From positions 7,663,065 to 7,727,064 of the forward strand of contig NW_024725489.1 of NCBI RefSeq assembly GCF_018991925.1: DNA of 64,000 nucleotides, given 5' to 3'. The first letter of the stretch is position 1, and each line of letters begins with the position of its first letter. The notes beneath the pieces are model-generated. The model did no database searches, was not told the origin of the DNA, and saw nothing but the letters and a program-made list of their open reading frames with translations. This document shows positions 1,652 through 37,815 of the stretch, piece by piece. This DNA is from Homarus americanus (lineage: Eukaryota; Arthropoda; Malacostraca; Decapoda; Nephropidae). A program made the translations under genes and the position numbers.

Positions 1652-1727
1652 GTGAGAGTAAGCTTGAAACACTTAGTGCAGTCACGTGTTTGATGTCTCA
1701 AAAATTACAGCTTAAAGGTGTATTGAT

Positions 1728-1865: not shown

Positions 1866-1937
1866 CACACATCCTCCACCACGCACCTTCCTAGTCTACA
1901 AGCCGCTCTGACGGGAATACAAAATATTGTACAGTAC

Positions 1938-1958
1938 ACAGCTAACCTAACCTAACCT
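1938..1958. repeat. interstitial CCTAA telomere-type repeat
   Basis: A short run of CTAACCTAACCTAA inside intron 1, the arthropod (TTAGG)n telomere motif. The equivalent spot in the intact gene is 31697-31716. Confidence 0.8.
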
Positions 1959-2183
1959 AAATTAGAAATTTTTTAACTTTATATAATTCCCAACAACTTT
2001 ATCATTGTAAGTTTGTTTTCAATAATCTTTTAAGCTGACTGGGGTCACTATAAGTCTAGCTAATAGTTCTCCAACCCTCAGTAAAGACATGAAGCTGAGG
2101 CTTTGGTTCAACTTTTTATGATAACGTTGATGGTAAACTGTTAATGTACTCACTGACTGACTGTTCGTTGTCTTGTGCTGCAG

Positions 2184-3377
2184 CCTTACCCACTCTGGCG
2201 TCTCTAGGTTGATATGGACAGCAGCCTGGCCCTCTTCCTCGGGGTGTCACTCCTCTCCTTCTGGTCACTACTGGGTCGCATCCTCCGCTATCTGGCCAAC
2301 AAAGTACATCTCCAGTCTCATCAGTCACAGTCAGTCAAGTCAGTATCATATTCACACGTCACCTGTGAAACGCAACCACAGGATTCTGTAGAGCCTAAAG
2401 ATTGGATGAGAGAGAAAGAGGAGGTGAAGATGCCACGGTGGGAGAGGGTGTGGGCTGTGGTGGGCGTGGTGGTTCTGGTGGTCATGACGTGTGTCCACTC
2501 CCTGGTGACTGTGGCAGCCTACCTGTGGCAGCCCGTCGCCACTTCCATCCCCATGACAAGAGATCCTCTGCCCTTCTCCGGCGTCACCGTATGCCCCGAC
2601 ATGCCCTTCAAGTCGCACGTACTAACAAACTATAACATACACCCTGTAGTAAGCAGTTGTTTTGAGCCAAGAGAAATACTCCTCAATGATGTGTTGACAA
2701 AGTTGCCTGGACTGTGGCAAGGACAGGTCGACTTGGTGTCACTGTGGTGGGAGGCAGCCAAGGAGCAGAGTGAAGTTGTTCCCAGAGTTATAATCTCCTG
2801 TAAACTTCAAGAAACCTGGAGGCCCATAATGACCACCAACAACGTGTGCTACCAGCTGACATCTCCATTTCCCATAAACAACAAGAAAGACGTCAGCCTC
2901 ACACTAGCGGCCACTGCTGAGTTCTTGGAGTTTTTTCGTTTGTCAGATTGCTTTCTGTACAAAGAGAAGACCATGTGGATTATAATACCTAACCTGGGAG
3001 ACACGCCGCTACTCGCATCCCGCCAGAACAGATACTCTTACCAACACATAGAGAAATGTTTCCATGGGCGGGAGATAGTTGTGCTGCCACAGGTGGTGCA
3101 GCGCGCCACACCCTGTCTGCCTGCACCCTACAGCCGCACCACCTGCATTGACTGCTACACACTACAGGCAGCCGCCACCCACGTGGGCTGCACACTGCCC
3201 TACATGAACCTCTCATACCTCCCACCCTGCCACACACAGGGTCAGTACCAACAAAGTAAAAAATACATGGTGAGCACCGACTCACCCACCTTAAACACGG
3301 TAAGATGTATGCATGACTGCCCCCAAGAGTGTCACACTGTGTACTACCACCTTCAGTCAGTAAACATTATTCCTAAC
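2184..3377 (+). pseudogene. dead channel copy, exon 2 first part (unit 1 TM2, unit 2 ectodomain)
   Basis: Starts after a TGCTGCAG acceptor, as in the intact gene. It encodes TM2 of unit 1, the cytosolic linker, TM1 of unit 2 and most of the unit 2 ectodomain. An in-frame stop lies at 2205-2207, where the intact gene has TTG, just before the pore helix. A 12-base in-frame deletion near 2927 removes RDDLQ-region residues. The frame then stays open to 3377, where a gypsy LTR begins. The last five bases, CTAAC, are the target-site duplication. Confidence 0.9.
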
Positions 3378-3708
3378 TGGAGATGTTCGGGGTACTTGGT
3401 TCTAACTACTGGGGCGAACATAAACACCTGTAGAGTTCTGTAGGTTCTTATTAACGGAAATAAACAGGAGTGCGCTTACAAGCGCAGGTAGTCCTTACAC
3501 TCCTATAGGGTCAACTGACCTCACTCTGACCTCTCAGGCGACATGTGGTAAGTGGTACATTAGCAGCTTCCAGATGTCGCCAGGCACATTTATCTAAGCG
3601 TGTGGTGACATGAAACAGGGGCATTGCCACACGCTACTGACTAGAGAAATAATGTGTATATATAGAGCACATACATGGTATACATACAACATACATAATA
3701 TACATACA
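3378..3708 (-). repeat. gypsy copy 1, 3' LTR
   Basis: 331 bp, begins TGGAGATG and ends TACATACA on the + strand. It is almost identical to 7104-7434. Since the element reads leftward, this is the 3' LTR. Confidence 0.92.
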
Positions 3709-3723
3709 CCTCCCCTCCCCCCT
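3709..3723 (-). promoter_or_regulatory. polypurine tract of gypsy copy 1
   Basis: CCTCCCCTCCCCCC on the + strand, a purine run on the element strand directly abutting the 3' LTR. This is where plus-strand DNA synthesis is primed. Copy 2 has the same tract at 48076-48088. Confidence 0.8.
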
Positions 3724-3792
3724 ATACACTCATAGCAAAGGTCTTGAGCGGACCTTTTCCTGTGGATCCGTTCTGAGCGTCGAGGGGCTTAA

Positions 3793-4582
3793 TCACTGTG
3801 GGGGAATATGGGACTCAGCACTGGTGACGGGGTCAGCAGGATGCGTTACGGGGCGGAGGAAACAGCAGTTCCTCCACCACATCCGACCGCTGGGTAACCG
3901 CACCTGGTAGTCCCGTGACCTGCTGAGACCCATGACTACGCCCACTTTGTCCCAACGTAGGGAGGTCGGGTCCTGGACACGGACTTGGGTGCCGACACTC
4001 AACCTGGGGAGAGAACGGGCGTGGTCGTTGTGGCGGGCGACGACGTCTTGAATACGTTCAGCAGCTCGGCGATCAAAATCCTCTGTCTTGGCCTGCCACT
4101 CCTTGGAGAAGGATTGAGGGTGAGCAGGGACACAAGAACGGAGGGGCGTCCATACAAGACCTGGGCAGGGGAGCATCCGGTGTAATTGGGTGTGTTGCGG
4201 AGCTCAAGGAGACCCTGGTCGAAGGCCTCGCAGTCAATATTCCCAGAAGGGGCCACTTTGAGGATGAGGTGCTTCAGGGATTTAACAGCAGCCTCAGCCT
4301 GGCCGTTGGACTGCGGGTAATGAGACGGTGACAACACATGCCGGACTCCCCATCGGTCGAGGAACCCAGCAAAGTCCCGGCTTGTGAACTGGGGCCCTCC
4401 GTTGGTTCACAGGCGTACAGGAACGCCCACGTCACGGAAGTAGTGGCGGAACTTGCTGATGGTGGCGGCAGATGTCGTATCATTACCTCACTTGATGACA
4501 ACCGGCCAACCCGAGAGACGGTCGATGATAACCAGGAAGGACTCTCCTGACACACAGAAAATGTCGGCCGACACAGACTCAA
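3793..4582 (-). pseudogene. gypsy copy 1 integrase, middle and C-terminal parts, frameshifted
   Basis: Three overlapping frames (4274-4582, 3999-4337, 3793-4176) carry successive pieces of the integrase that is open in copy 2 (48088-49284). They include the HYPQSNG block with the catalytic Glu of the DDE core and the C-terminal SH3-like region before the polypurine tract. At least two frameshifts make it non-functional. Confidence 0.85.
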
Positions 4583-5429
4583 AGGGGCGGGTGGGGTTGT
4601 CGTCGCTCATGAAGGGTTCCTGCTGCTGGCTGGGTTGCAATACTTGGCGGGGCTTACACGCCTGGACAGCATTGGAGATGCCGGGGTCGATGCCAGGCCG
4701 GAACACAGTCTGTCTTGCATGCCGTTTGGTGGCCTCGGCTCCACGATGACTGTCGTGGAGGCAAGCCAAGGCGTGGGGACGTGAAGCAGCAGGGACAACT
4801 ACCGAAGGAGAGGTGTCACTGGCCAGAGGTAGGGGTAGGGCGGCAGCAGGGTAGTTGCTGCTCCCTTCGTGCACCCTGTTGGCGTATTTTACCTCGAGAA
4901 TCAGTGTTGGAAAGTCCTGGGAGATGATGGCCAACTCTTGGCAATGTCTGTAGCACAGCAAAGGAGTCGGGACGCCATTATGCACGTCAATCCCGGCTTG
5001 ACATGACCTGTTGCCAAAGGTGATCTGTGCTTGGAGTGAACCTAGGGCTGGGGCCATCTGTGAACCATCTGCAGTGACGCGGAGGTCCTTGGGAGGCGGT
5101 CCTAGATCACTTGGAGAGAGCCCCAAGCATTGCAAATGCTGGGGACCGATGACCGTAGCCTCAGCGCCGGTGTCGGGCAGCATCTCGAGACAGGATGACA
5201 CGCTGCCATAGGTCACGATGACGCTGACGTGCTGGGGGACTTTGGTCCTGGGACGCGAGGAGTATACCCTTCTAATATGGGTCGGGCTTTGTCCAGGGTC
5301 GTCGTGCCTCTGATTTGGCGACTGTGGGCGGCCCTCACTGGTGGAAGGGCGCTGCTGCTTCCGCCGAAGCTGTCTCTTAGGTTTGTTGGTCGGACAACAC
5401 TTGTCGTAGTGGCCCAGACGACCACACAC
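4488..5429 (-). pseudogene. gypsy copy 1 zinc knuckle, protease, integrase N-terminus; RT/RNase H deleted
   Basis: A 313-codon open frame that starts in the CCHC zinc knuckle. It continues through an aspartic protease with an intact active site (LPDTGAEATVIG). It then jumps, near 4800, straight into the integrase HHCC finger and the first catalytic Asp (FESVSADIF). In copy 2 the whole RT and RNase H lie between these points. The frame stays open across the junction, so the deletion made a protease-integrase fusion. It breaks again in the integrase core. Confidence 0.88.
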
Positions 5430-5776
5430 ATTGCACTGGACGCGTTTGGCTGGGCACCGTACTGTAAGTGGCCAGTGGCCCTTGCGGCCACAACTGTCGC
5501 AGGTAGACTCAGCGGCTGGACATACCTGTGTTCCGTGCTACCTACCACAGCTGTTGCAAAGGGAGCCGGGCGTGGGCGTGGTGGGCGTAGGCGTTGGGGC
5601 AGACTTCTTGTCTTTCTTGTATTGGGACATAGCCCGTACGGCTGTAGGGGGAGCTCGGATGGCAGAGGTAGCACACCTGGCAGCCTCGTAGGAGCGACAT
5701 ACTGTCTACACATCCTTAAGAGGAGAGGAAGAGTCGAAGGAGGTGAGGCGTTGGACAAGCTCCTCGTCCTTAACAC
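5213..5776 (-). pseudogene. gypsy copy 1 gag C-terminus / nucleocapsid frame
   Basis: Overlaps the zinc-knuckle region in another frame and links the gag frame (5780-6547) to the protease frame. The CCHC residues are read partly here and partly in the 4488-5429 frame, so at least one frameshift lies in nucleocapsid. Whether any of it was a programmed gag-pol shift cannot be told. Confidence 0.5.
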
Positions 5777-5779
5777 CCA

Positions 5780-6547
5780 TCAGATCACCTGCTTCAACTG
5801 GGTCTCCTCGCACTGCTGGTGATTACTGGGACATATGTCAATCTCTTCCGAGGCTCTCTTGAGTCGTACGTAGAAATCATCAAAAGTCTCGCCCTCCATC
5901 TGTCTACAGCTAAACACTTCCCTCCTGCGGAGAGCTTCATTTCGCTGACCTTTGATGTGTCGTTCTAGAACATCCAATACCTCCTCTACAGACAACAAAG
6001 ACGTCGGGGGCACTTGCAACGTATGTTCCAACACATGCTGGGTTCCCAAAGACAGGCACATACGTAGCTGAATGAGTTGTTTGGGCTGTGGCAAGCTCTG
6101 GAGATCCACCATTGTAGCATAATCAGTCCACCGTCGCTGCCACTCACGAAAAGTCTGGAAAGTCTCATCAGGCTTCAAGGTGGGTGGGGGTTGGACAACC
6201 ACTTTGGTAGAGGGCGTTGACGAGGTATCTGAGCCAGTCGGTACCTGAGTAGTGGAAGGGCCAAGGGCTTGATTAGCAGTGAGGCTAGATATCAAAGCTG
6301 CAAACCGTTCGTTATCTTCCAATCTCCTTTGGTGGTCCTCAGCATGTCTTTTCACTTCGTCCTGACGCCTCTCCTCCCTCATAAGCTTCATCAGAGCAAT
6401 TATCTCTGAGGACAAGGCTGAGGGTCGAGGGGTGTGGCTGGGAGAGGGTAGGGCGTCGCCCATTGACTGGTCATCCATCTCTGTAGAGCTGTCATCCGTC
6501 TGATTCATCCGGGCGCTAGAGACACCGCTGCGTGAGGTCCGGGGCAT
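5780..6547 (-). CDS. gag: gypsy copy 1 gag
   Basis: 255 codons starting with an ATG near the PBS side of the element. It has a Ser/Thr-rich acidic N-terminus, a charged coiled-coil-like stretch (MKLMREERRQDEVKRHAE), and a capsid-like region with FREWQRRWTDYATM and LQSLPQPKQLIQLRMCLS. The same protein is encoded, more damaged, at 51614-52300. The frame ends just before the zinc knuckles. It would form the particle core of the element. It is an element gene, not a host gene. Confidence 0.85.
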   Translation of the reverse strand: MPRTSRSGVSSARMNQTDDSSTEMDDQSMGDALPSPSHTPRPSALSSEIIALMKLMREERRQDEVKRHAEDHQRRLEDNERFAALISSLTANQALGPSTTQVPTGSDTSSTPSTKVVVQPPPTLKPDETFQTFREWQRRWTDYATMVDLQSLPQPKQLIQLRMCLSLGTQHVLEHTLQVPPTSLLSVEEVLDVLERHIKGQRNEALRRREVFSCRQMEGETFDDFYVRLKRASEEIDICPSNHQQCEETQLKQVI

Positions 6548-6654
6548 AATTACTTTATCTGTATATTGTATCTCAAATCAGTGTTGACCGGTCAGCCCGT
6601 CGTATCAACCAGATCAGAGACAACAAAATTAATTGAATACACAGATAAGTAACT

Positions 6655-6685
<31 letters not shown>

Positions 6686-7084
6686 TATGAAGAAATGACC
6701 GCGGTCAGTGTGTTCGTGCGTGGGTTGGTGTGTGTAGGCGCGGTGGAGCGCGGAGGGAAGCGAGGCGGTGGGGGGTGAGCAGTGGGGGGTGAGTTACCCT
6801 CGAGGCAGCCGGGGACACCATTCCTCACAAATGCCCTATATGTATATCAGCCTTCCACCTTAGGGAATCCTTTAAAACAAGGACACACACTTTAACACTA
6901 CACACACACGAGGGGCACTTAAAGACACTTCACAGGAAATTGCGGTCACTGCACACTGCACAAAACTCGTTGGTCAGTCAAAATAATTTTTGGGGGAGAC
7001 AATGGCGACGGATGACGGAGTTGACAGAGGAGGTCCACCGGCCTTGATTTTACATGAACGCACTTATTTCCACTTAATCGATCA
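6548..7084 (-). other. gypsy copy 1 untranslated leader
   Basis: Between gag and PBS, with no coding signal. It contains a short (TA)n at about 6653-6678 and a GC-rich stretch at 6735-6790. The corresponding part of copy 2 is 52370-52860. Confidence 0.7.
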
Positions 7085-7103
7085 CTTGATACTCACTGCG
7101 CCA
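7085..7103 (-). promoter_or_regulatory. primer-binding site of gypsy copy 1
   Basis: Directly internal to the 5' LTR the element strand reads TGGCGCAGTGAGTA, beginning with the TGG expected to pair with a tRNA CCA end. Copy 2 has the same 14 bases beside its 5' LTR. The tRNA species cannot be named from sequence alone. Confidence 0.75.
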
Positions 7104-7434
7104 TGGAGATGTTCGGGGTACTTGGTTCTAACTACAGGGGCGAACATAAACACCTGTAGAGTTCTGTAGGTTCTTATTAAAGGAAATATACAGGAGTGCA
7201 CTTACAAGCGCAGGTAGTCCTTACACTCCTATAGGGTCAACTGACCTCACTCTGACCTCTCAGGCGACATGTGGTAAGTGGTACATTAGCAGCTTCCAGA
7301 TGTCGCCAGGCACATTTATCTAAGCGTGTGGTGACATGAAACAGGGGCATTGTCACACGCTACTGACTAGAGAAATAATGTGTATATATAGAGTACATAC
7401 ATGGTATACACACAACATACATAATATACATACA
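7104..7434 (-). repeat. gypsy copy 1, 5' LTR
   Basis: 331 bp, the partner of 3378-3708, with a handful of differences between the two. Near-identity points to a fairly recent insertion. Confidence 0.92.
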
Positions 7435-7810
7435 CTAGCGACTACGTGTTCAGAATTATTATGCCGCTGAAATATTACGTCACCATCACTAAATATGTAT
7501 CACGTCGCTCAGCAGTCTGTTATGTGGCCTGGGAGGTATTGTTGGGCTGTATGTCGGGTGGTCAGTGATGGGGGTAAGGTTGTCACACGCTACTGACTAG
7601 AGAAATAATGTGTATATATAGAGTACATACATGGTATACATACAACATACATAATATACATACACTAACGACTACATGTTCAGAATTATTATGCCGATGA
7701 AATATTACGTGATCATCACTAAATATGTATCACGTCGCTCAGCAGACTGTTATGTGGCCTGGGAGGTATTGTTGGGCTGTATGTCGGGTGGACAATGATG
7801 GGGGTGGGGG
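7351..7810 (+). repeat. 230-bp tandem duplication across the LTR/exon boundary
   Basis: The end of the LTR plus the start of the following exon piece (7351-7580) is repeated directly at 7581-7810. The second copy retains the original CTAAC while the first reads CTAGC. The duplication must post-date the gypsy insertion because it carries LTR sequence. Confidence 0.88.
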
Positions 7811-8225
7811 AGGCCCTGGCTGCTGTAGTACTGCGTCGTGTTGGGGGCGTCGTTAACCATACTTGCCGCTTCCTGTGCCTCATGGTGGCCGCTGTATTCT
7901 GGAGTCAATGTGTGTTCTGGTATGTGTGGGATCATCCGTATTACACCACTTATAACATGGAGAACGTCCGCTCGCACCACTTTCCCTCGCTCACTGTCTG
8001 CCGCTGGCCACCCTTCAACCTGTCACTCCTGATGGAGCTGGGCCTCGCCTACGACTGTAAGACCTCGTGCACCAAGTACAGGTGTTACAACAGCACCACC
8101 GTGTTGAGGGACCTGCCGGGGCTGTGGGGAACACACTCCCTACACCACGTGTGGGACGCCGCCGCCTGGGACCTTCAAGACCTCGTCACTGGTTACTACC
8201 TTGACGGTCATCACTACCATGTGTC
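7440..8225 (+). pseudogene. dead channel copy, exon 2 second part (unit 2 TM2, unit 3 TM1)
   Basis: Resumes exactly where 3377 stopped. It encodes the end of unit 2 with its TM2, then TM1 and the start of the ectodomain of unit 3, as in 33144-33701. The first 130 bases are present twice because of the 230-bp duplication. Both copies lack one base (CACGTCGC for CACAGTCGC, near 7502 and 7732), a frameshift ahead of TM2. The frame is open from 7795 to the GTGAGT donor after 8225. Confidence 0.88.
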
Positions 8226-9069
8226 GTGAGTTGTCCACACACATACACACGCACACACACCAGGTGACCTAACAAAGTGTTAGGAGTAAGGGTGCCAACA
8301 GAGGTGCTCCTGTTCTCACAAGGTCAACAATTTAATGCCAATGAAAGAAAAGATAGACAGACAGACATATATGTATAACGACTGTGGTAGACATAATAGG
8401 GGTGGTAGACATAATAGGGGTGGTAGACATGCATGATGGGGGTAACAGACATGCATGACGGGAGACAGACATGTATGACAGGAGTGACAGACATAAACTT
8501 TTCTGGGTGAGAGCTTATTTATATTTGATGTAGATTCTTAACTTTTTGAGTTAGATGACATAAACCTTGAGTACGATCACTTTTGGATACGATAACTGTC
8601 ATAAGTCAGATAATAATTTAACACCATATGTACGATAATTTAACGACATGAGTACGATGACTAATGGGGTTAGTGTCGTACTCAAGCAATTAAACAAAAA
8701 AATCTGTCCAAGGTATTACAGAAAATTAATTACCATTATCTTGATGACGTGTTAGTACTTGGGTCTGAGGTAAATTTCTTTATTTCTTGTTTAGTTTTGT
8801 GGTCACATGATACACTGGTGGCGGTAACATGTTTCCACACAGCCAACAGATAAAAACAAATGGCACAACGACGGCGTTAGATAGTTATTTTGTTTTCATT
8901 TCAGTCATCATGATACAAGATTATGTGGAGTGGTAGCCTTTTGCAGCCCCCAGTGTGATGGCCCTGATACATGAATTAAACAAACAGTAGAGCAACTAAC
9001 TTACGACAGGTGATAACGTTATAACTTGTTACGAGAATTGGAATGGTTAAATTTGTTTGTGCTGTACAG
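8226..9069 (+). other. intron 2 of dead channel copy
   Basis: Begins GTGAGT and ends CTGTACAG, collinear with 33702-34528. It contains a CA run, a few copies of a GTAGACATAATAGGGG-type repeat (8387-8440) and AT-rich unique sequence. No gene seen. Confidence 0.75.
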
Positions 9070-9741
9070 GGAGAACGGGGACGGCGGAGTGTGGCGCCCG
9101 GTGGTGACGGAACACAACCGCTGCTACACCTTCACCCCGAAGGCAGGGACCAGCCTCACCTCCTACACCATCACCCTCAACACACAGTACGTCGGGGAGA
9201 GGAGACTGCCCCGCGACAACGACACTGCCAAGATGTTCCTTAATTCACTCAGATATGAAAACCCGCCTCATGCCATCCTCAGAGTACACGCTACAGAAGA
9301 TGTGCTGTACAGGCAAGACAACCACAGTACTGAGCAGCTGTACTACAGTAACCCAACGGCTGTAGAGTACGTGGTTGATCAAGTGCTGGTGAAGAAGCTG
9401 CCCCGGGCTGGCCGCCTCTGTCATCGGGGTGGTGGGTACTCCCAGGAGGAATGTGTGTGACGCTGCCAAGCTTCTCTTACCGCCCAGGTCATGGGCTGCC
9501 GTCTACCTTACCTCACCTGGTTCACTCACCCTTACCTCTGCAACACTTCTCTTCACTATTCATCTTAACCGCGACAAGTCGGCGAACAGAAGGTTTACAA
9601 CAGCATCATGTTGGGCAGAGGGACGACAGAATACATGGAAGACACGGCATTTCGGGCCTCCTGCCCCTCTGCCTGCACCCACAACCACTACACTGCCACC
9701 TTCCACAAGAGGTCTGTCTACTTTAGCAACGTCTCCGTCAC
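9070..9741 (+). pseudogene. dead channel copy, exon 3 (unit 3 ectodomain)
   Basis: Collinear with intact exon 3 (34529-35203). The unit 3 ectodomain is readable, but a TGA at 9458-9460 replaces a Ser codon inside the YSQEEC block and a TAA at 9566-9568 replaces a Tyr codon. The donor GTGAGT after 9741 is intact. No copy of the last exon (TM2 of unit 3) was found downstream, so this copy could not make a complete third unit. Confidence 0.88.
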
Positions 9742-9856
9742 GTGAGTGTTCTCAGTCCCGCCTAAAGTGGCCATATAAAGGTATGACGGCCTATAGTGTG
9801 TTTTCCTCAGATTGATATATTTATACCGTATAGCTCTCTCACCTGCGACTAGAGGA

Positions 9857-10212
9857 CCAGTAAGGGCCAACCTCCATGATCCAGTAAGGCCCATCCTTCA
9901 TGGTTAAGTAAGGGCCATCCTTCATGGTCCAGTAATGGCCATCCTTCATGGTCCAGTAAGGGCCATCCTCCATGGTCCAGTAAGGCCCATCCTCCATGGT
10001 CCAGTAAGGGCCATCCTTCATGGTCCAGTAAGTGCCATCCTCTATGGTCCAGTAAGGGCCAACCTCCATGGTCCAGTAAGGCCCATCCTTCATAGTCCAG
10101 TAAGGGCCATCCTCCATGGTCCAGTAAGGCCCATCCTCCATGGTCCAGTAAGGGACATCCTCTATGGTCCAGGAAGGGCCATCCTTCATGGTCCAGTGAG
10201 GGCCATCTTGCA
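9857..10212. repeat. 24-bp minisatellite, array 1
   Basis: About 15 tandem copies of a 24-bp unit CCATCCTCCATGGTCCAGTA with variants, in the intron after exon 3. The unit is a multiple of three without stops, so long meaningless open frames appear on both strands. Related arrays lie at 10838-11143, 11765-12000 and 35316-35803. Confidence 0.93.
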
Positions 10213-10617
10213 TGGCCCGGTGTTAGTACAGGAGGAAACTGTAATACTTGGAGTAAACCTGACATGTTCAGTTGTGTCAACATACTCCTCGGGGTATAGG
10301 GACCCCGAGTCACAGACAGGAGAGAGGTAAGTAAGTCTGTACTGCCAGCCCAGGTAACGTTAGTTGGCAACCCTTCACAGTCACCTGACTTGTTCTAACC
10401 TAACCTAACCTAATCCAAGACTTTATTCATCCTATCTGACGGTACGTATGCGCTTGAGGCTGCAGTGCTGCCCGCGTCTTATGTTACATGGAATCTCTAT
10501 AACTAGGAATTTCACGTAATTCCTAAAATGTTCAGGCGTTTCTTATAATCGCTACGACTATCGATAAAATTTAATGGTTACGTTAGCTGACGGTGACAGC
10601 CATTACAAGAAATGCAG

Positions 10618-10717
10618 ACACGACATGTCGGGCCTCCTGCCTCTCTGCCTGCACCCACAACCACTACACTGCCACCTTCCACAAGAAGTCTGTCTACTTT
10701 AGCAACGTCTCCGTCAC
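10618..10717 (+). pseudogene. extra copy of exon 3 tail, number 2
   Basis: About 100 bases matching the last part of exon 3 (CPSAC cysteine block to the exon end), with the GTGAGT donor but no acceptor or upstream exon sequence. It is the first part of a tandemly repeated unit of about 927 bp. Confidence 0.85.
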
Positions 10718-10837
10718 GTGAGTGTTCTCAGTCCCGCCTAAAGTGGCCATATAAAGGTATGGCGGCCTATGGTGTGTTTTGCTCAGATTCATATATTTAT
10801 ACAGTATAGCTCTCTCACCTGTGACTAGAGGTCCAGT

Positions 10838-11143
10838 ATGGGCCAACTTCCATGGTCCAGTAAAGGCCATCCTTCATGGTCCAGCAAGGGCCATCCTTCA
10901 TGGTCCAGTAAGGGCCATCCTCTATGGTCCAGTAAGGCCCATCCTCCATGGTCCAGTAAGGGACATCCTCTATGGTCCAGTAAGGGCCATCCTTCATGGT
11001 CCAGTGAGGGCCATCCTCCATGGTCCAGTAAGGGACATCCTCTATGGTCCAGTAAGGGTCATCCTTCATGGTCCAATAAGGCCCATCCTCCATGGTCCAG
11101 TAAGGGACATCCTCTATGGTCCAGTAAGGGCCATCCTGCATGG
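10838..11143. repeat. 24-bp minisatellite, array 2
   Basis: About 13 units of the same 24-bp repeat as at 9857, within the second copy of the exon-3-tail duplication. Confidence 0.9.
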
Positions 11144-11544
11144 CCCGGTGTTAGGACAGGAGGAAACTGTAATACTTGGAGTAAACCTGACATGTTCAGT
11201 AGTGTCAACATACTCCTCGGGGTATAGGGACCCCGAGTCACAGACAGGTGAGAGGTAAGTAAGTCTGTACTGCCAGCCCAGGTGACGTTAGTTGGCAACC
11301 TTCACCGTCACCTGACTTCTTCTAACCTAACCTAACCTAATCCAAGACTTTATTCATCCTATCTGACGGTACGTATACACTTGAAGCTGCAGTGCTGCCC
11401 GCGTCTTATGTTACATGGAATCTCTATAACTAGGAATTTCACGTAATTCCTAAAATGTTCAGGCGTTTCTTATAATCGCTACGACTATCGATAAAATTTT
11501 ATTGTTACGTTAGCTGACGGTGACAGCCATTACAAGAAATGCAG

Positions 11545-11644
11545 ACACGACATGTCGGGCCTCCTGCCTCTCTGCCTGCACCCACAACCACTACACTGCC
11601 ACCTTCCACAAGAAGTCTGTCTACTTTAGCAACGTCTCCGTCAC
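11545..11644 (+). pseudogene. extra copy of exon 3 tail, number 3
   Basis: Third copy of the exon 3 tail, 927 bp downstream of the second and nearly identical to it, again with the donor site. Confidence 0.85.
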
Positions 11645-11764
11645 GTGAGTGTTCTCAGTCCCGCCTAAAGTGGCCATATAAAGGTATGGCGGCCTATGGT
11701 GTGTTTTGCTCAGATTCATATATTTATACAGTATAGCTCTCTCACCTGTGACTAGAGGTCCAGT

Positions 11765-12000
11765 ATGGGCCAACCTCCATGGTCCAGTAAAGGCCATCCT
11801 TCATGGTCCAGCAAGGGCCATCCTTCATGGTCCAGTAAGGGCCATCCTCTATGGTCCAGTAAGGGCCAACCTCCATGGTCCAGTAAGGGCCATCCTCCAT
11901 GGTCCAGTAAGGCCCATCCTCCATGGTCCAGTAAGGGACCTCCTCCATGGTCCAGTAATGGCCATCCTTCATGGTCCAGTGAGGGCCATCTTGCATGGCC
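11765..12000. repeat. 24-bp minisatellite, array 3
   Basis: About 10 units of the same 24-bp repeat, in the third duplicated block. Confidence 0.9.
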
Positions 12001-12419
12001 CGGTGTTAGTACAGGAGGAAATTGTAATACTTGGAGTAAACCTGACATGTTCAGTAGTGTCAACATACTCCTCGGGGTATAGGGACCCCGAGTCACAGAC
12101 AGGTGAGAGGTAAGTAAGTCTGTACTGAAAGCCCAGGTGACGTTAGTTGGCAACCCTTCACCGTCACCTGACTTGTGTTAACCTAACCTAACCTAATCCA
12201 AGACTTTATTCATCCTATCTGACGGTACATATACGCTTGAGGCTGCAGTGCTGCGCGCGTCATATGTTACATGGAATCTCTATAACTAGGAATTTCACGT
12301 AATTCCTAAAATGTTAAGGCGTTTCTTGTAATCGCTACGACTATCTATAAAATTTAATGGTTACGTTAGCTGACGGTGACAGCCATTACAAGAAATGCAA
12401 GGTGACTAAAGACATAAAC

Positions 12420-12680
12420 TTGCCAAACCTAACCTAACCTAACCTAACCTAACCAAACCAAATCTTGCCTCACAACCCTCAGGTAGATTTAGTTATATTA
12501 GAGTAGGCTAGGTTAATTTTTGAGTTAGGTTAAGTTTGGTTATACAGTACTGTATTCGGTTAGGTTAGGTTTTACTAAATTTGGTTAGATTAAAATAGAG
12601 TATATATTAAATTCAAATCAGTTAGGTTAGGTTGAGTTTGGTTAGATTTAGTTTAAGTTGAGTTGGTTAGGTGACAAATA
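12420..12680. repeat. degenerate telomere-type repeats in both orientations
   Basis: CCTAA runs at 12424-12462 are followed by scattered GGTTAGGTTAGG-type runs up to about 12675. The same head-to-head arrangement is at 36250-36460. Confidence 0.75.
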
Positions 12681-12777
12681 ACTTTAATTTTATCTTAAGA
12701 TAACTAATGTTATTGGTGAAATGGGAGAGATTTACTCCGTACAGGTTTCAACCTGCGAGGGAACGAACTTTTTTATT

Positions 12778-13747
<970 letters not shown>

Positions 13748-20806: not shown

Positions 20807-20814
20807 GGGAACAT

Positions 20815-28005: not shown

Positions 28006-28017
28006 ACACACATACAC

Positions 28018-30072: not shown

Positions 30073-31179
30073 ATGTCTCGAATACTTTGCTTAGTTGAAG
30101 TATTGGTGGTGGTGGTGGTGGTGGCCCTGTTGGGGGTGCAGATGGGGAGTAACGTGGCCTTGTGGTGGAGTGAACCTCTCACCACCTCCTACACCACCGA
30201 TAACCGCTACCTCCTCCCCTCCATAACAGTCTGCCCTAACCCACCTTTCAACATAACTGCTTTATTTAGTCTGGGCTTCAACACATCAATGGCACCTCTG
30301 GAAGACTTACAGAGACTGGACCACCAACTGGGTATGCAAAGTGACTTGGGTGAAGTGTGGCGGGCCACAGCCTGGGGTGTGGGCGACGTGGTGAGCCAGA
30401 TGCAGGCGGCTGGTCAACTATACACTTACTCTCGCCACCAGATGACCGCCCCAGGCTGGGCTCTCTCCTTCACTCCTCTAGGCCCCTGCCTTACCTACAA
30501 CACCTCAGCAAGCTCGCCGTCAGGCACCAACCTTCATATCAAACTCAGGACAAAACCACAACCTCGGTGCTCTCATCCACTACTGACCAGTGCTCAATTT
30601 TCATGCGAAGATATTGACACATACTGCAACACTTCCTGCGACTTTGAACACTTCATTGATAAACTGTACGCTCAACATGAATATGAAGGCCCGTGTATCA
30701 TCCTGCACTCCCCTCACGACCCCCCTACATTATCAGACACTGGGGCAGTAATACCTCTCTTATCCTTAGATACATTTCAATCAAAACCTGCGAAGCTGGA
30801 CATCTGGGTTGCTTCCCGCCGACTACGACGACTGGAGAGCGGGCCGTCTGGGTGTGAGAAGAGGCCAGACTACAGCGAGGTACAGTGCCAGCAGTTGTGT
30901 GGAGAGCCTTGTCACCCCCGCAGTCTTACAGTTAGACCACCACATGCTACTTGGTCAAACATAAGTTTTCACCATTCTTGCTTTAGGAAACCCGATCGTC
31001 AGACCTTTGAACACCAGAAATTGACGGATGAGTTCTACTCGTGTATGGACAAGTGTAAAACTCACTGTTCCAAGTCCTTCTTCAGGTACATCTTTAAGCA
31101 TGAAAACCACGATGGATCAGATTTCTTAGTGACCTTACGCCCACAAGCCAATTTCATCCCCATCTTCACAGAGAGTAAG
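30073..31179 (+). CDS. channel exon 1: unit 1 TM1 and ectodomain
   Basis: 369 codons, phase 0 end at an AAG/GTGAGA donor. Only four residues precede a very hydrophobic TM1 (LVEVLVVVVVVALLG), much shorter than the usual cytosolic N-terminus, so an undetected 5' exon or a signal-anchor role is possible. The ectodomain has the YSEVQC cluster at about 267 and CMDKCKTHC near the end. An unspliced reading would run 13 more codons to a stop at 31221 and lose TM2. Confidence 0.85.
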
Positions 31180-34100
31180 GTGAGAGTAAGCTTGAAACAC
31201 TTAGTAGAGTCACGTGTTTAATGTTGTCTCAAAAATTACAGCTTAAAGGTGTATTGATGCTGTTCCTCACACTACCCTTATGTTGTTCCTCACACTCTAC
31301 CATCATGTTGTTCCTCACACTCTACCCTCATATTGTTCCTCACACTCTACCCTCATGTTGTTCCTCATACTCTACCTTCATGTTGTTCCTCACACTCAAC
31401 CCTCACATTGTTCCTCACACTCTACCCTCATGTTGTTCCTCACACTCTACCCTCATGTTGTTCATCACCCTCTAACCTCATGTTGTTCATCACACTCTAC
31501 CCTCATGTTGTTCATCACCCTCTACCCTCATGTTGTTCCTCACACTCTACCCTCATGTTGTTCATCACACTCTACCCTCATGTTGTTCCTCACACTCTAC
31601 CCTCATGTTGTTCATCACACACACACATCCTCCACCACACACCTTCCTAGTCTACAAGCCGCTCTGACGAGAATACAAAATACTGTACGGTACACAGCTA
31701 ACCTAACCTAACCTTACCTAGAAAATTTTTAACTTTATATAATTCCCAACAACTTTACCATTGTAAGATTGTTTTCAATAATCTTTAAGGCTGACTGGGG
31801 TCACTGTAAATCTAGCTAATAGTTCTCCAACCCTCAGTAAAGACATCAAGTTGAGGCTTTGGTTCAACTTGTATAATAACGTTGATGGTAAATTGTTAAT
31901 GTTCTCACTGACTGACTGTTTGTTGTCTTGTGCTGCAGCCTTACCCGCTCTGGCGTCTCTTGGTTGATATGGGCGGCAGTCTGGGCCTCTTCCTCGGGGT
32001 GTCACTCCTCTCCTTCTGGTCACTACTGGGTCGCCTCCTCCACCATCTGGCCAACAAGGTACATCTCCAGTCTCATCAGTCACAGTCAGTCAGGTCAGTA
32101 TCACATTCACACATCACCTGTGATACGCTGCCACAGGATTCTGTGGAGCCTAAAGATTGGATGAGAGAGAAAGAGGAGGTGAAGGTGCCACGGTGGGAGA
32201 GGGTGTGGGCTGCGGTGGGCGTGGTGGTGCTGGTGGTGATGACGTGTGTCCACTCCCTGGTGACTGTGGCAGCCTACCTGTGGCAGCCCCTCGCCACCTC
32301 AATCTCCATGACAAGAGATGCTCTGCCCTTCCCCGGCGTCACCGTATGCCCTGACATGCCCTTCAAGTCGCACGTACTGACAAACTATAACATACACCCT
32401 GTAGTAAGCAGTTGCTATGAGCCAAGAGAAGTACTCCTCAATGATGTGTTGACAAAGTTGCCTGGACTGTGGCAAGGACAGGTCGACTTGGTGTCACTGT
32501 GGCGGGAGGCAGCCAAGGAGAGGTGTGAAGTTGCGCCCAGAGTTACAATCTCCAGTAAACTTCAAGAAACCTGGAGGCCCATAATGACCACCAACAACGT
32601 GTGCTACCAGCTGACATCTCCATCTCCTATAAACAACAAGAAAGACGTCAGCCTCACACTAGCGGCCACTGCCGAGTTCTTGCGAGATGACTTGCAGTTT
32701 TTTCGTTTGTCAGATTGCTTTCTGTACAAAGAGAAGACCATGTGGATTATAATACCTAACCTGGGAGACACGCCGCTACTCGTATCCCGCCAGAACAGTT
32801 ACTCTTACCAACACATAGAGAAAGGTTTCCATGGACGGGAGATAGTTGTGTTGCCACAGGTGGTGCAGCGAGCCCCACCCTGTCTGACTGCACCCTACAG
32901 CCGCACCACCTGCATTGACCGCTGCACCCTACAGGCAGCTGCCACCCACGTGGGCTGCACACTGCCCTACATGAACCTCTCATACCTCCCACCCTGCCAC
33001 ACACAGGCTCAGTACCAACAAAGTAAAAAATACATGGTGAGCACCGACTCACCCACCTTAAACACGGTAAGATGTATGCATGACTGCCCCCAAGAGTGTC
33101 ACACTGTATACTACCACCTTCAGTCAGTAAACATTATTCCTAACGACTACTTGTTCAGAATTATTATGCCGCTGAAATATTACGTCACCATCACTGAATA
33201 TGTATCACAGTCGCTCAGCAGTCTGTTATGTGGCCTGGGAGGTATTGTTGGGCTGTATGTCGGGTGGACAATGATGGGGGTGGGGGAGGCCCTGGCTGCT
33301 GTAGTACTGCGTCGTGTTGGGGGCGTCGTTAACCATACTTGCCGCCTCCTGTGCCTCATGGTGGCCGCTGTACTCTGGAGTCAATGTGTGTTCAGGTATG
33401 TGTGGGATCATCCGTATTACACCACTTATAACATGGAGAACGTCCGCTCGCACCACTTTCCCTCGCTCACTGTCTGCCGCTGGCCACCCTTCAACCTGTC
33501 ACTCCTGGTGGAGCTGGGCCTCGCCTACGACCGTAAGACCTCGTGCACCAAGTACAGGTGCTACCACAGCACCACCGTGTTGACGGACCTGCCGGGGCTG
33601 TGGGGAACACACTCCCTACACCACGTGTGGGACGCCGCCGCCTGGGACCTTCAAGACCTCGTCACTGGTTACTACCTTGACGGTCATCACTACCATGTGT
33701 CGTGAGTTGTCCACACACATACACACACACACACACACACCAGGTGACCTAACAAAGTGTTAGGAGTAAGGGTGTCAACAGAGTTGCTCCTGATCTCACA
33801 AGGCCAACAATTTAATGCCAATGAAAGAAAAGACAGGCAGACAGACATATATGTATAACGACTGTGGTAGGCATAATAGGGGTGGTGGACATGCATGATG
33901 GGGGTAACAGACATGCATGACGGGAGACAGACATGTATGACAGGAGTGACAGACATAAAATTTTCTGGGTGAGAGCTTATTTATATTTGATGTAGATTCT
34001 TAACTTTTTAAGTAAGATGACATAAACCTTGAGTACGATCACTTTTGGGTACGATAACTGTCATAAGTCCGATAATAATTCAACACCATATGTACGATAA

Positions 34101-36633
34101 TTTAACGTCATGAGTACGATGACTAATGGGGTTAGTGTCGTACTCAAGCAATTAAAAAAAATCTGTCCAAGGTATTACAGAAAATTAATTATGATTATCT
34201 TGATGACGTGTTAGTACTTGGGTCTGAGATAAGTTTCTTTACATCTTGTTTAGTTTTGTGGTCACATGATACACTGGTGGCGGTAACATGTTTCTACACA
34301 GCCAACAGATAATAATAATTGGCACAACGACGGCGTTAGATAGTTATTTTGTTTTCATTTCAGTCATCATGATATAAGATTATGTGGGGTGGTAGCCTTT
34401 TGCAGCCCCCAGTGTGATGGCCCTGATACATGAATTAAACAAACAGTAGAGCAACTAACTTACGACAGGTGATAACGTTATAACTTGTTACGAGAATTGG
34501 AATGGTTAATTTTGTTTGTGCTGTACAGGGAGAACGGGGACGGCGGAGTGTGGCGCCCGGTGGTGACGGAACACAACCGCTGCTACACCTTCACCCCGAA
34601 GGCAGGGACCAGCCTCACCTCCTACACCGTCACCCTCAACACACAGTACGTCGGGGAGAGGAGACTGTCCCGCGACAACGACACCGCCAAGATGATCCTT
34701 AATTCACTCAGACATGAAAACCCGCCTCATGCCATCCTCAGAGTACACGCTACAGAAGATGTGCTGTACAGGCTTGACGACCACAGTACTGAACAGCGGA
34801 TGTACTACAGGAAACCAAAGGCTGTAGAGTACGTGGTTGATCACATGTTGGTAAAGAAGCTACCCCGGGCTGGCCGCCTCTGTCATCGGGGTGTTGGGTA
34901 CTCCCAGGAGGAGTGTGTGTCACGCTGCCAAGCTTCTCTTACCGCCCAGGTCATGGGCTGCCGTCTACCTTACCTCACCTGGTTCACTCACCTTTACCTC
35001 TGCAACACTTCTCTTCACTATTCATCTTATCCGCGACAAATCGGCAAACAGAAGGTTTACAACAGCATCTTGTTGGGCGGAGGGACGACAGAAGACATGA
35101 ACGACACGGCATGTCGGGCCTCCTGCCCCTCTGCCTGCACCCACAACCACTACACTGCCACCTTCCGCAAGAAGTCTGTCTACTTTAGCAACGTCTCCGT
35201 CACGTGAGTGTTCTCAGTCCCGCCTAAAGTGGCCATATAAAGGTATGACGGCCTATGGTGTATTTTGCTCAGACTGATATACTTATACCGTATAGCTCTC
35301 TCACCTGTGACTAGAGGTTCAGTAAGGGCCAACCTCCATGATCCAGTAAGGGCCATCCTTCATGGTCCAGTAAGGGCCATCCTTCAGGGTCCAGTAAGGG
35401 CCATCCTTCATGGTCCAGTAAGGGCCATCCTCTATGGTCCAGTAAGGGCCAACCTCCATGGTCCAGTAAGGGCCATCCTTCATGGTCCAGTAAGGGCCAT
35501 CCTCTATGGTCCAGTAAGAGCCATCCTTCATGGTCCAGTAATTGCCATCCTTCATGGTCCAGTAAGGGCCATCCTCTATGGTCCAGGCAGGGCCATCCTT
35601 CATGGTCCAGGAACGGCCATCCTCTATGGTCCAGTAGGGGCCAACCTCCATGGTCCAGTAAGGGCCATCCTTCATAGTCCAGTAAGGGCCATCCTCCATG
35701 GTCCAGTAAGGCCCATCCTCCATGGACCAGTAAGGGACATCCTCCATGGTCCAGTAATGGCCATCCTTCATGGTCCAGTAAGGGCCATCTTGCATGGCCC
35801 GGTGTTAGTACAGGAGGAAACTGTAATACTTGGAGTAAACCTGACATGTTCAGTAGTGTCAACATACTCCTCGGGGAAGAGGGACCCCGAGTCACAGACA
35901 GGAGAGAGGTAAGTAAGTCTGTACTGAAAGCCCAGGTGACGTTAGTTGGCAACCCTTCACAGTCACCTGACTTGTGCTAACCTAACCTAACCTAAGCTAG
36001 CCTAACATAACCTAACCTAATCTAATCCAAGACTATATTCATCCTATCTGACGGTACGTATACGCTTGAGGCTGCAGTGCTGCCCGCGTCATATGTTACA
36101 TGGTATCTCTATAACTAGGAATTTCACGTAATTCCTAAAATGTTAAGGCGTTTCTTATAATCGCTACGACTATCGATAAAATTTAATGGTTACGTTAGCT
36201 GACGGTGACAGCCATTACAAGAAATGCAAGATGACTAAAGACATGAACTAACCAAACCTAACCTAACCTAACCTAACCAAACCAAAGCTTACCTCACAAC
36301 CCTCGGGTAGATTTAGTTATATTAGAGTAGGCTAGGTTTAGTTTGAGTTAGGTTAGGTTTTATTAAGTTTGGTTAGATTAAATTAGAGTATATATTAAAT
36401 TCAAATCAGTTAGGTTAGGTTGAGTTTGGTTAGATTAAGTTTAAGTAGAGTTGGTTAGGTGACAAATAACTTAAATTTTATCTTAAGAGAACTAATGTTA
36501 TTGGTGAAATGGAAGAGATTTACTCCGTACACGCTTCAACCTGCGAGGGAGCGAACTTTTTTTCTTTTTTTTTTACTGGGATTATCCCACCCGGGCACAG
36601 GTAATGACCCACATCAGGGCCTGGGGGGCGAAA

Positions 36634-36668
<35 letters not shown>

Positions 36669-37815
36669 TCTATTATTATTATTATTATTATTATTACAAC
36701 AATTAATAAAATTTATATCAAATTAATACAAATAAAATAATTAAAATAATAAAAATAATAACCATAAATAAATACAAAATCGAAAAAATAAATCAATAGT
36801 GAGAAATTATATACATTATATACTGTATGTTGTGTTGTCCAAGTAAGAGAAACAATTGAGACCCTGCAATTGTGTGTAAATGAGGCAGAAAGTCAGATCA
36901 GCAACCTTGGACTTGGTCACAATTTTCGTGATGCCATATGGCAGCAGGGTCTACCATTAGGCAACACATTATGCTTCCAATATCTTCTGGGGGATGACTT
37001 TGTGATGGTGATAATGGTGGTGGTGGTGGTGGTGATGATGGTATGGGTGTGGGTAATAATGATGGTGCCGATGATAATGGTGGTGATAATGATAATGGTG
37101 GTGGGGGTGGTGATGATGGTGGTGGTGATGGTGATAATGGTGGTGATGATGGTGGTGGAGGTGGTGGTGGTGGTGATGGTGATGGTGATAATGGTGGTGG
37201 TGATGATACTGATAATGGTGGTGGTGATTGTGATGGTGTGGGTATTAAGGATGATGTTGATGATAATTGTGGTGATAATGGTGGTGGTGATGGTTATGAT
37301 GGTGGTGGTGTGGATAATAATAATGATGGTGTTGATGATAACGGTGGTGTTGGTGGTGATAATTGTGGTGGTGATGGTGATAATGGTGGTGGTGGTAATG
37401 GTGGTGATGATGGTGATAATGGTGGTGGTGATGGTGATAATGGTGGTGATAGTGGTGATAATGCCGCATAGATCTGCGGCTCAACTAACTCAACACAGCT
37501 AGGGTAGCTACTTATGTATTAGGATATTTAATATTAAGGTAATAAAATGATGGCGAAGGTATGGCTATTGGGGGAGGATGGAGGCCATTAAAAAATGTAT
37601 ATATTAATAAATAATAGTGGTGATGCTACAGGTTCTCGGGCCGGACACACGACGTGGTGGTGGAGCTGGACGGGTACACATGGGCGCAACTCCTCAGTGA
37701 CGTGGGCGGCGTGGGCGGCTTCATGTTGGGATCCTCCCTACTGTCCTTGCTGTACACCCTACTTCACCTGCTGCCCGCTTCTGTTCACCGCTACTCAACC
37801 GGGCCACCCCACTAG
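30073..37815 (+). CDS. three-unit concatenated DEG/ENaC channel (1242 aa, 4 exons)
   Basis: Exons 30073-31179, 31939-33701, 34529-35203 and 37632-37815 sum to 3726 coding bases plus stop, i.e. 1242 codons. All junctions are GT-AG and phase-matched (0, 2, 2). The protein has three DEG/ENaC units in tandem. Unit 1: TM1 about 5-30, TM2 about 380-400. Unit 2: TM1 about 459-482, TM2 about 796-818. Unit 3: TM1 about 837-858, TM2 about 1200-1226. Family signs in each unit are the post-TM1 block (LPSITVCPNPPFN, FPGVTVCPDMPF, FPSLTVCRWPPFN), ectodomain Cys clusters (from about residues 267, 689 and 1081) and a pore segment ending in G-x-S/T. Members are normally single units that trimerise into Na+-permeable channels; here the trimer would be one chain (inference). 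Each unit is short, and the cytosolic HG gating motif before TM1 is not seen in any. A dead duplicate with the same order lies at 546-9741. Confidence 0.87.
31180..31938 (+). other. channel intron 1
   Basis: 759 bases, GTGAGA to TGCTGCAG. It contains the 25-bp minisatellite (31256-31620), a CCTAA run (31697-31716) and unique sequence. Its position just before TM2 is shared with the intron before the last exon, which also precedes the TM2 region of its unit. Confidence 0.8.
31256..31620 (+). repeat. 25-bp minisatellite in intron 1
   Basis: About 14 copies of a unit containing CACTCTACCCTCATGTTGTT with CCT/CAT variants. Open frames across it are artefacts of the repeat. Confidence 0.92.
31939..33701 (+). 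CDS. channel exon 2: unit 1 TM2, whole unit 2, unit 3 TM1
   Basis: 1763 bases without a stop, from PYPLWRLLVDMGG to YHV. It starts with TM2 of unit 1 and its pore segment GLFLGVSLLS (GVS at 389-391). A polar cytosolic linker of about 58 residues follows, with REKEEVKVPRWERVW. Then come TM1 of unit 2, its complete ectodomain (YSRTTCIDRC, CMHDCPQECHTVYY) and its TM2 (GLYVGWTMMGVGEAL, GWT at 811-813). A linker of only about 20 residues leads to TM1 of unit 3 (LLCLMVAAVLW) and FPSLTVCRWPPFN. It ends TC/GTGAGT, phase 2. This exon alone proves that units 1, 2 and 3 are joined. Confidence 0.92.
33702..34528 (+). other. channel intron 2
   Basis: 827 bases, GTGAGT to CTGTACAG. A CA run lies near 33711-33742. 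No coding sequence seen; collinear with 8226-9069. Confidence 0.8.
34529..35203 (+). CDS. channel exon 3: unit 3 ectodomain
   Basis: 675 bases. Its first base completes the Ser codon split by intron 2, and the frame then runs ENGDGGVWRPVVTEHNRCYT. It holds the conserved palm/thumb-type Cys cluster YSQEECVSRC (about 1081), GCRLPYLTW, then CRASCPSACTHNHY. It ends AC/GTGAGT in phase 2. The last strand (KKSVYFSNVSVT) leads into the TM2 exon. Confidence 0.9.
35316..35803. repeat. 24-bp minisatellite, intact gene
   Basis: About 20 units of the CCATGGTCCAGTAAGGGCCA-type repeat, open in frames on both strands because 24 is a multiple of three. Confidence 0.93.
36560..36700 (+). repeat. conserved module plus (AAT)n/(ATT)n
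   Basis: The second copy of the CCACCCGGGCACAGGTAATG module, followed by AAT repeats that switch to ATT repeats at about 36671. Confidence 0.85.
36847..36990 (+). repeat. dispersed repeat (CAATTGAGACCCTGC family)
   Basis: Matches 45965-46115 in inverted orientation and 62265-62325 in part. Twice it follows the conserved module and AAT array, so the two are probably parts of one element. Confidence 0.75.
37000..37465 (+). repeat. GGTGAT-rich microsatellite
   Basis: Mixed GGT, GAT and AAT triplets (GGTGATGATGGTGGT-like) over about 465 bases. It gives low-complexity open frames on both strands that are not genes. Confidence 0.93.
37632..37815 (+). CDS. channel exon 4: unit 3 TM2 and C-terminus
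   Basis: 60 codons and a TAG. Its first base completes the Thr codon of exon 3. It reads VVVELDGYTWAQLLSDVGG, then the pore helix GGFMLGSSLLSLLYTLL with GSS at 1215-1217, then a short cytosolic tail ending GPPH. This is the textbook pre-TM2 and TM2 sequence of the DEG/ENaC family. No duplicate of it was found in the window, so the dead copy lacks it. Confidence 0.88.

Follow-up and report, generated by a model that had tools for sequence, protein, structure and literature searches.

Within the window (the whole stretch of 64,000 nucleotides of Homarus americanus DNA that was analysed), the forward strand carries a four-exon gene and, upstream of it, a broken tandem duplicate (Table 1). Joining exons 1 to 4, whose splice sites are predictions from genomic DNA, gives 3,729 bases, that is, 1,242 codons and a single terminal stop; all three introns have GT..AG borders and the phases match. 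Support for the start codon comes from P0011, a related fragment of unit 1 that likewise begins no more than about a dozen residues from TM1. The window protein has TM-like segments at six places, forming three pairs, and its three units (u1, u2, and u3) have ectodomains of 352, 317, and 343 aa, respectively. An earlier note on this DNA had described four phase-matched exons with 1242 codons and three full TM1-ectodomain-TM2 units, which the join and the six segments bear out; when the letters were rechecked, its observation that one exon (exon 2) crosses both unit boundaries free of stops held as well. Because the u1-u2 and u2-u3 junctions both lie inside this stop-free exon, the fusion is independent of splice choice.

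Table 1. Features of the three-unit gene and of its duplicate (positions within the window)
Feature	Position	Strand	Remarks
Tandem duplicate of the window gene, pseudogene	373..12976	+	94-95% identical DNA in the three longest blocks
Exon 1	30073..31179	+	aa 1-369: start codon, unit 1 TM1 and ectodomain; conserved in P0010 and P0011
TM1, unit 1	30082..30138	+	aa 4-22
Exon 2	31939..33701	+	Unit 1 TM2; unit 2 in full; unit 3 TM1 and the first part of its ectodomain
TM2, unit 1	31954..32034	+	aa 375-401; GxS belt is GVS
Linker, unit 1 to unit 2	32035..32211	+	59 aa, predicted cytosolic, 8 K/R
Unit 2, TM1 to TM2	32212..33300	+	aa 461-823; GxS belt is GWT; Gly in place of the upper-gate Asp
Linker, unit 2 to unit 3	33301..33345	+	15 aa, predicted cytosolic, 3 K/R
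TM1, unit 3	33346..33402	+	aa 839-857
Exon 3	34529..35203	+	Ectodomain of unit 3; conserved with P0010
Exon 4	37632..37815	+	Unit 3 TM2, followed by a short C terminus and the stop codon
TM2, unit 3	37687..37767	+	aa 1201-1227; GxS belt is GSS

A search with the Pfam ASC profile (PF00858), from which three hits had been expected, matched each unit when taken singly, with E values of 4.5e-16, 1.6e-15, and 3.5e-19 and bit scores of 59.4, 57.6, and 69.6 for units 1, 2, and 3, all above the curated cut-off of 23.6 bits; the whole protein scores 167.8 bits, in four stretches. ASIC1 chain 6l6i aligns with a profile built from one fragment and 10 units, over profile positions 12-404 of 418 (E 4.4e-23). 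Of the 18 Cys columns in the ASIC1 stretch used for comparison, 9 are shared by the family, and at these the window protein has a C in 26 of 27 cells. By ASC score, TM pair, and Cys-rich ectodomain, each window unit is thus confirmed, at the level of sequence, as a member of the DEG/ENaC superfamily.

The duplicate, about 29.5 kb upstream of the window gene, contains 6 in-frame stops and 2 one-base gaps, and an insertion within its exon 2 holds retroelement frames; exon 4 was not found at this locus. Over the aligned codons, disabling lesions number 8 in the duplicate and 0 in the window gene. Comparison of the two across 1,172 codons gives a dN of 0.0375 and a dS of 0.0573, a ratio of 0.66 that would correspond to moderate constraint but says little, since one partner is a pseudogene. 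(Retroelement frames are common throughout the window.)

Seven further three-unit loci are present in the same 2.2-Gb genome. In five of them one open frame of 981-1,318 codons contains all three units, so splicing cannot create the fusion there. Of the others, C6320 is frame-broken in unit 3, and C20911 was rejected as a proven fusion: it has a phase-matched donor and acceptor between u1 and u2, as judged by eye, but its u2-u3 junction was not found, and it is counted as a three-unit locus only. Full-length pairs within the genome, other than the window gene and its duplicate, are at most 40% identical, too distant for dN/dS. The genome also has other DEG/ENaC genes, which have many exons and are apparently single-unit.

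The earlier note had proposed looking for the same fusion in other decapod genomes, and it is indeed found there. Public data hold four further three-unit proteins, unnamed or annotated as "hypothetical", two of them from the decapods Halocaridina and Petrolisthes. The relative search requires shared exact five-residue words, and the best 7,991 and 7,996 candidates by shared words were scored; among the matches listed there are at least five relatives, the two with named species both being decapods, and no single-unit outgroup proteins. The Halocaridina rubra protein (SK128_025002; 1,289 aa) is 35% identical over 99% of the window protein, an alignment that excludes chance as the origin of the window frame. 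Around the three predicted splice junctions, where 51 residues each were aligned, there are 24, 27, and 18 matches, and the gap columns number 2, 2, and 0. Pmani_024392 of Petrolisthes manimaculis belongs to the same three-unit family but, unlike the window protein, lies on a branch with a shortened middle unit; the databases leave both proteins unnamed. Each of the ten full-length unbroken proteins examined (the window protein, five paralogs, and four database relatives) has three units, and none has two or four. Taken together, the gene, its paralogs, and its relatives in other species support, as far as sequence can, a genuine three-unit DEG/ENaC fusion in which order and number are conserved.

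When 30 units taken from 10 genes were placed in a tree, they formed clades by position, with support of 100/99 for u1, 99/98 for u2, and 99/96 for u3; support for u3 drops to 64/33 once C20911 and outgroups are added. In this extended tree the 33 units form one group (100/99) apart from ASIC1 and two further genes of this genome, ENaC not being included. Because the units cluster by position, the ordered u1-u2-u3 triple probably arose once and was later duplicated as a whole.

Across the family the u2-u3 linker has 15-28 aa and the u1-u2 linker up to 66 aa, with 2-11 K/R in each. N-glycosylation sequons show no significant enrichment in the ectodomains (111 per 9,080 residues) over predicted cytosolic regions (5 per 831 residues; Fisher p 0.13), and the predicted topology thus rests on homology.

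The residues expected to form the pore and gate differ by position (pore-residue counts cover 33 units from 11 genes; the HG count, 30 units from 10 genes). The glycine of the GxS belt is present in 33/33 units and the serine in 29/33; in the window protein the glycine is kept in all three units and the serine in two, with T in unit 2. The alanine at 11' is kept in just 3 of the 33 units and is V, W, and S in window units 1 to 3. By residue numbering, the D of GDIGG in the alignment is taken to be the upper-gate aspartate. At this position D is found in 11/11 of u1, 0/11 of u2, and 8/11 of u3 (D or E in 10/11), and the window protein has D in units 1 and 3 and G in unit 2, a pattern that would be expected if each unit holds its own fixed place. 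At 18' the window units have S, E, and Y, so that two of three glutamates are replaced; no gene of the 11 has an acid at 18' in all three units, and K or R occupies 18' in five of the 11 u3. The HG motif is not found in the first 70 residues of any of the three window units and is missing from 29/30 family units. Judged from these alignments, the units are three position-specific types and not interchangeable copies.

In the literature, the upper-gate aspartate is D433 of chicken ASIC1, the His-Gly motif before TM1 is a lower-gate element described as highly conserved across DEG/ENaC channels (both PMC10148893), and the 18' glutamate is the Na+ selectivity site (PMC5449180). The latter source further reports that changing the belt glycine to A or S abolished ASIC1a function and that ASIC1a homotrimers with A11'V, A11'F, or E18'A were non-functional (PMC5449180).

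The most likely explanation, and one we hold with reasonable confidence, is a gene-encoded pseudo-trimeric DEG/ENaC channel with fixed subunit order. Those DEG/ENaC channels whose structure is known are described as trimers (PMC10148893). Here one polypeptide would carry three non-identical units, u1-u2-u3, with short cytosolic linkers between them, and the chain would fold as one pseudo-trimeric channel, with the gene setting both the stoichiometry and the order of the subunits. We infer that the three units surround one pore, that the linkers are cytosolic, and that the pore conducts; it is predicted to be probably poorly Na+-selective, because only one of the three 18' glutamates is kept. 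(An AlphaFold2 model of a relative, P0009, made from a four-row alignment with rows P0008, P0007, and P0010, has a pLDDT of 37.6 and a pTM of 0.26, and nothing is drawn from it.) Labor would be divided within the chain, with u1 and u3 retaining the upper-gate acid and u2 having lost the aspartate; in one clade u2 also lacks over half of the ectodomain (139-150 residues remain in 6/10 genes). Somewhat less firmly, but still on balance, we favor a decapod family of natural single-chain trimeric channels that would have begun with an ancestral three-unit fusion, divided its labor by position, and then been duplicated whole.

It is unlikely, though worth weighing, that these are instead conserved receptor, adhesion, or chaperone-like proteins that keep the DEG/ENaC fold and have lost conduction. 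Loss of HG together with replacement of A11' means that some family members could be non-conducting, and the K/R residues at 18' of u3, the failure of any gene to keep an 18' acid in every unit, and the reduced middle ectodomain point the same way. Against this, the belt glycine and serine and the upper-gate acid of u1 and u3 are retained as if the pore were selected. Also quite unlikely is a real, conserved chain that is not self-contained, two or three chains assembling together or with ordinary DEG/ENaC subunits and surplus units lying outside the pore. The longest u1-u2 linkers have enough length for other arrangements, and the apparently single-unit genes of this genome could supply partners; yet three units in 10/10 proteins and the deep u1-u2-u3 order would be difficult to account for if the working number were not three. 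We consider it very improbable that the long frame is a by-product of separate single-unit products made by alternative starts, internal polyadenylation, or splicing: exon 1 read past its donor, a frame of 388 aa from stop to stop that lacks TM2 and terminates within intron 1, would permit a truncated unit 1, but both junctions share one exon, five paralogs have all units in one frame, and the few residues between TM2 of unit 2 and TM1 of unit 3 leave little room for a start of its own. Least probable of all is an assembly artefact or dying gene, to which the near-identical broken copy, the retroelement frames of the window, and the frame-broken C6320 might point, but which is largely refuted by relatives with the same architecture in other species' sequences and by the lesion-free window copy.

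The proposed single-chain pseudo-trimer resembles known systems in part. Like ASICs, ENaC, and arthropod pickpockets (PF00858), the window units exceed the ASC cut-off and have two TM segments, a Cys-rich ectodomain, and a GxS belt; unlike a canonical subunit, the family has lost HG and has asymmetric 18' and 0' pore residues. According to PMC10148893, each subunit of the structurally known DEG/ENaC channels contains a single two-TM unit, whereas here there are three diverged units per chain. ENaC alpha-beta-gamma also places three non-identical subunits round one pore in that account (PMC10148893), an arrangement that the present units may share, but ENaC is three chains and here there is one gene and one chain. 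Laboratory ASIC1a concatemers, as reported in PMC5449180, likewise have three tandem units in one chain, and in the laboratory case one channel was formed; those, however, are engineered repeats of one subunit, and here the units are natural, anciently diverged, and order-specific. The suggestion that the gene is a natural version of such concatemers is supported in part: there are three units in fixed order, but they are not repeats, since they differ by position, and folding of one chain into one channel would be a further, proposed step. The accompanying suggestion that no natural three-unit member had been described agrees with searches of open-access papers, among whose listed results no description of a natural multi-unit DEG/ENaC protein was found.

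Four-domain voltage-gated Na+/Ca2+ channels, two-pore channels, and K2P channels are natural fusions of subunits that relatives assemble separately, but they are pseudo-tetramers or dimers with a fold different from that of DEG/ENaC. We are aware of no family of trimeric channels in which all subunits are naturally fused, and to our knowledge this is a first candidate for a trimeric channel that followed the same route as the four-domain Na+ and Ca2+ channels. Trimeric channels have been studied by engineered concatemers because subunit placement is hard to control. With number and order hard-wired and a long divergence between positions, subunit roles at the gate, filter, and ligand pocket become directly testable. 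If the proposal is true, the decapod family would be a trimeric counterpart of the four-domain voltage-gated channels, with an asymmetric pore and gene-encoded stoichiometry, and would offer nature's own concatemers for the study of subunit roles; it would also raise the question of why decapods would give up combinatorial assembly.

Splicing and translation of the four predicted exons of the window gene (see table) yield 1,242 codons followed by a single stop, with GT..AG introns whose phases agree across exons, just as the earlier note had proposed for a chain of three units (u1, u2, and u3, by position). Its further claim, that one stop-free exon spans both unit boundaries, held: exon 2 reads through without a stop and contains unit 2 in full, flanked by TM2 of unit 1 and TM1 of unit 3. 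Thirds of the protein taken singly match the Pfam family ASC (PF00858) at 59.4, 57.6, and 69.6 bits (cut-off, 23.6 bits). This gives the predicted one hit per unit, but the uncut protein (167.8 bits) gives four stretches, one more than its units. By its sequence, the predicted protein belongs to the DEG/ENaC superfamily, but as a three-unit chain it should not be classed as an ordinary DEG/ENaC subunit.

Features of the window
Feature	Coordinates	Strand	Basis
Exon 1, window gene	30073-31179	+	predicted splicing
Exon 2, window gene	31939-33701	+	predicted splicing
Exon 3, window gene	34529-35203	+	predicted splicing
Exon 4, window gene	37632-37815	+	predicted splicing
25-bp minisatellite, intron 1	31257-31620		
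24-bp minisatellite, intron 3	35316-35797		
Neighbouring tandem duplicate	373-12976		
Retroelement frame	4488-5537	-	Pfam
Frame adjoining 4488-5537	5780-6577	-	no Pfam family matched
Retroelement frame	46515-47387	-	Pfam
Retroelement frame	49580-51331	-	Pfam
Endonuclease frame	20713-22182	+	domain match
Reverse-transcriptase frame (ends about 600 bases upstream of channel gene)	27979-29475	+	domain match
PIF1-like helicase fragment	62929-63351	+	E 1.5e-34

The tandem duplicate is 94-95% identical to the window gene over the three longest blocks. It has six in-frame stops and two one-base gaps, its exon 2 is interrupted by an insertion holding retroelement frames, the end of exon 3 occurs twice (near 10617 and near 11544, with a 24-bp minisatellite after each occurrence), and a search for exon 4 within it detected none. 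The window gene is free of all these lesions; eight versus none has p = 0.008 under equal neutral decay (two-sided sign test). Both minisatellite units of the window gene are present in the pseudogene copy too. Among the retroelement frames are integrase zinc-binding, RNase H, and reverse transcriptase domains. The endonuclease and reverse-transcriptase frames resemble those of LINE elements, and the PIF1-like fragment is perhaps a Helitron remnant.

The genome (2.2 Gb) was scanned for ASC, and 92 first-look candidates, when scored, gave 26 matches. Reading of the loci placed 12 of these in eight three-unit loci with the unit order of the window gene: that gene itself and paralogs on contigs C4988, C472, C1845 (42.0 Mb), C25063, C3354, C6320, and C20911. 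Thirteen others (C24163, C16801, C23508, C6479, C30505) appear to be exons belonging to other DEG/ENaC genes, or else remnants; the last, on C1845 at 6.7 Mb, was rejected as a low-complexity match. Five of the eight loci carry all three units in a single unbroken frame (stop-to-stop lengths of 1,318, 1,052, 1,069, 1,053, and 981 codons), so the fusion there cannot come from splice choice, as had been argued for the window gene. The C25063 frame has no ATG upstream of TM1, making an upstream first exon likely. In C6320 (L034, 4138-7209) the frame shifts part-way through unit 3, which may reflect a pseudogene or a sequence error. C20911 is intron-split; a phase-matched donor and acceptor can link its u1 to its u2, u3 lies further on as eight exon pieces, and a search for the u2-u3 junction did not find it.

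A database of 5.8 billion proteins was queried with three-unit sequences and one two-unit sequence (826 aa; candidates about 450-1,450 aa). Among proteins passing a shared-word filter (for some queries, the best-ranked candidates only), at least five relatives were found: P0007 (1,272 aa) and P0008 (1,038 aa), both from assembled contigs; P0009 (1,048 aa; Petrolisthes manimaculis, Anomura); P0010 (1,289 aa; Halocaridina rubra, Caridea); and P0011 (375 aa), which is unit 1 only. All four full-length relatives have three units, so that the search for the same fusion in other decapods, suggested in the earlier note, succeeded in both named species. By Pfam, P0007 and P0010 have three ASC stretches each, and P0008 and P0009 just two because their short middle unit goes unrecognised. 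P0010 is 35% identical to the window protein, is continuous through the three window splice junctions (24/51, 27/51, and 18/51 identical residues), and is the closest row to the window gene in the u1, u2, and u3 clades alike.

In a maximum-likelihood phylogeny built from 30 units of 10 genes, with C6320, C20911, and P0011 omitted, the units cluster by position, with support of 100/99 for u1, 99/98 for u2, and 99/96 for u3. When C20911 and three outgroups (an ASIC1 stretch from a PDB alignment and two exon-pieced genes of the same genome) are added, the 33 family units stay together (100/99), with u1 at 95/86, u2 at 98/98, and u3 down to 64/33; several long branches are flagged. TM2 also has positional signatures, with variations: DxGGSLGLFLGxSLL in u1, GGIxGLYLG in u2, and GGxxGxxxGxSLL in u3. 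Our reading is that the three units would already have been fused in order in a common ancestor, the gene later being copied whole.

The u2 ectodomain is 139-150 aa in six of the ten genes (C1845, C472, C25063, C3354, P0008, P0009) and 317-332 aa in the remaining four. Both TM helices survive in the short form, as do the later cysteines; C occupies the first two shared cysteine columns in just 5/11 u2 rows. The six short-u2 genes group together in the 30-unit tree (u1 97/95, u2 100/99, weaker in u3 at 81/75), so a single loss suffices. A channel from such a chain would carry two full heads and one short. Between u1 and u2 the linker spans 20-66 aa and between u2 and u3 15-28 aa, and every linker carries 2-11 K/R. 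Sequons number 111 among 9,080 ectodomain residues versus 5 among 831 predicted cytosolic residues, a difference short of significance (p 0.13); the proposed topology is therefore based on homology and the even TM helix count per unit.

At the pore, the GxS belt glycine is found in 33/33 units, the serine in 29/33, and the middle alanine in just 3/33. The upper-gate site (D433) was placed on the family alignment by residue numbering: in u1 it is D in 11/11 genes, in u2 D in none and E in four, and in u3 D in eight and E in two. According to a review, the upper-gate acid is D433 in chicken ASIC1 and the HG motif forms the lower gate (PMC10148893). HG is missing in 29/30 family units; only u3 of C4988 has it. 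In ASIC1a, Na+ selectivity is set by the 18' glutamate, and the selectivity profile collapsed in concatemers when two or all three units carried Q instead of E at 18' (PMC5449180). The window gene has S, E, and Y at 18' (u1-u2-u3), and none of the 11 genes has an acid there in all three units. Within one branch an acid-acid-basic pattern recurs, D-D-K (C472, P0009), D-D-R (P0008), and E-D-K (C25063), a fixed charge asymmetry at the selectivity position. The pore, if it is a pore at all, would thus be asymmetric and probably poorly Na+-selective. ASIC1a homotrimers carrying A11'V, A11'F, or E18'A are non-functional (PMC5449180), and the 11' residues of the window gene are V, W, and S, which argues against taking conduction by its chain for granted.

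The accessible text of decapod chemosensory work (PMC7510291, PMC7067487) counts seven spiny lobster ENaCs in the abstract and eight in the text and makes no mention of fused ENaC units; a term search of an ASIC phylogeny (PMC9949801) finds none of the words 'tandem', 'fusion', and 'crustacean'. The earlier note knew of no natural three-unit member, and among the papers listed by open-access literature searches there was likewise no natural multi-unit one. DEG/ENaC channels are described as trimers of two-TM subunits (PMC10148893). The best explanation for three units in every unbroken gene examined, together with the specialised positions, would be a single-chain pseudo-trimeric channel, in which the three units of one chain would together form one channel. 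At the gene level, it is all but certain that this is a natural, conserved chain of three ordered DEG/ENaC units, and with eight loci in this genome and relatives in other species it is a gene family, not a one-off.
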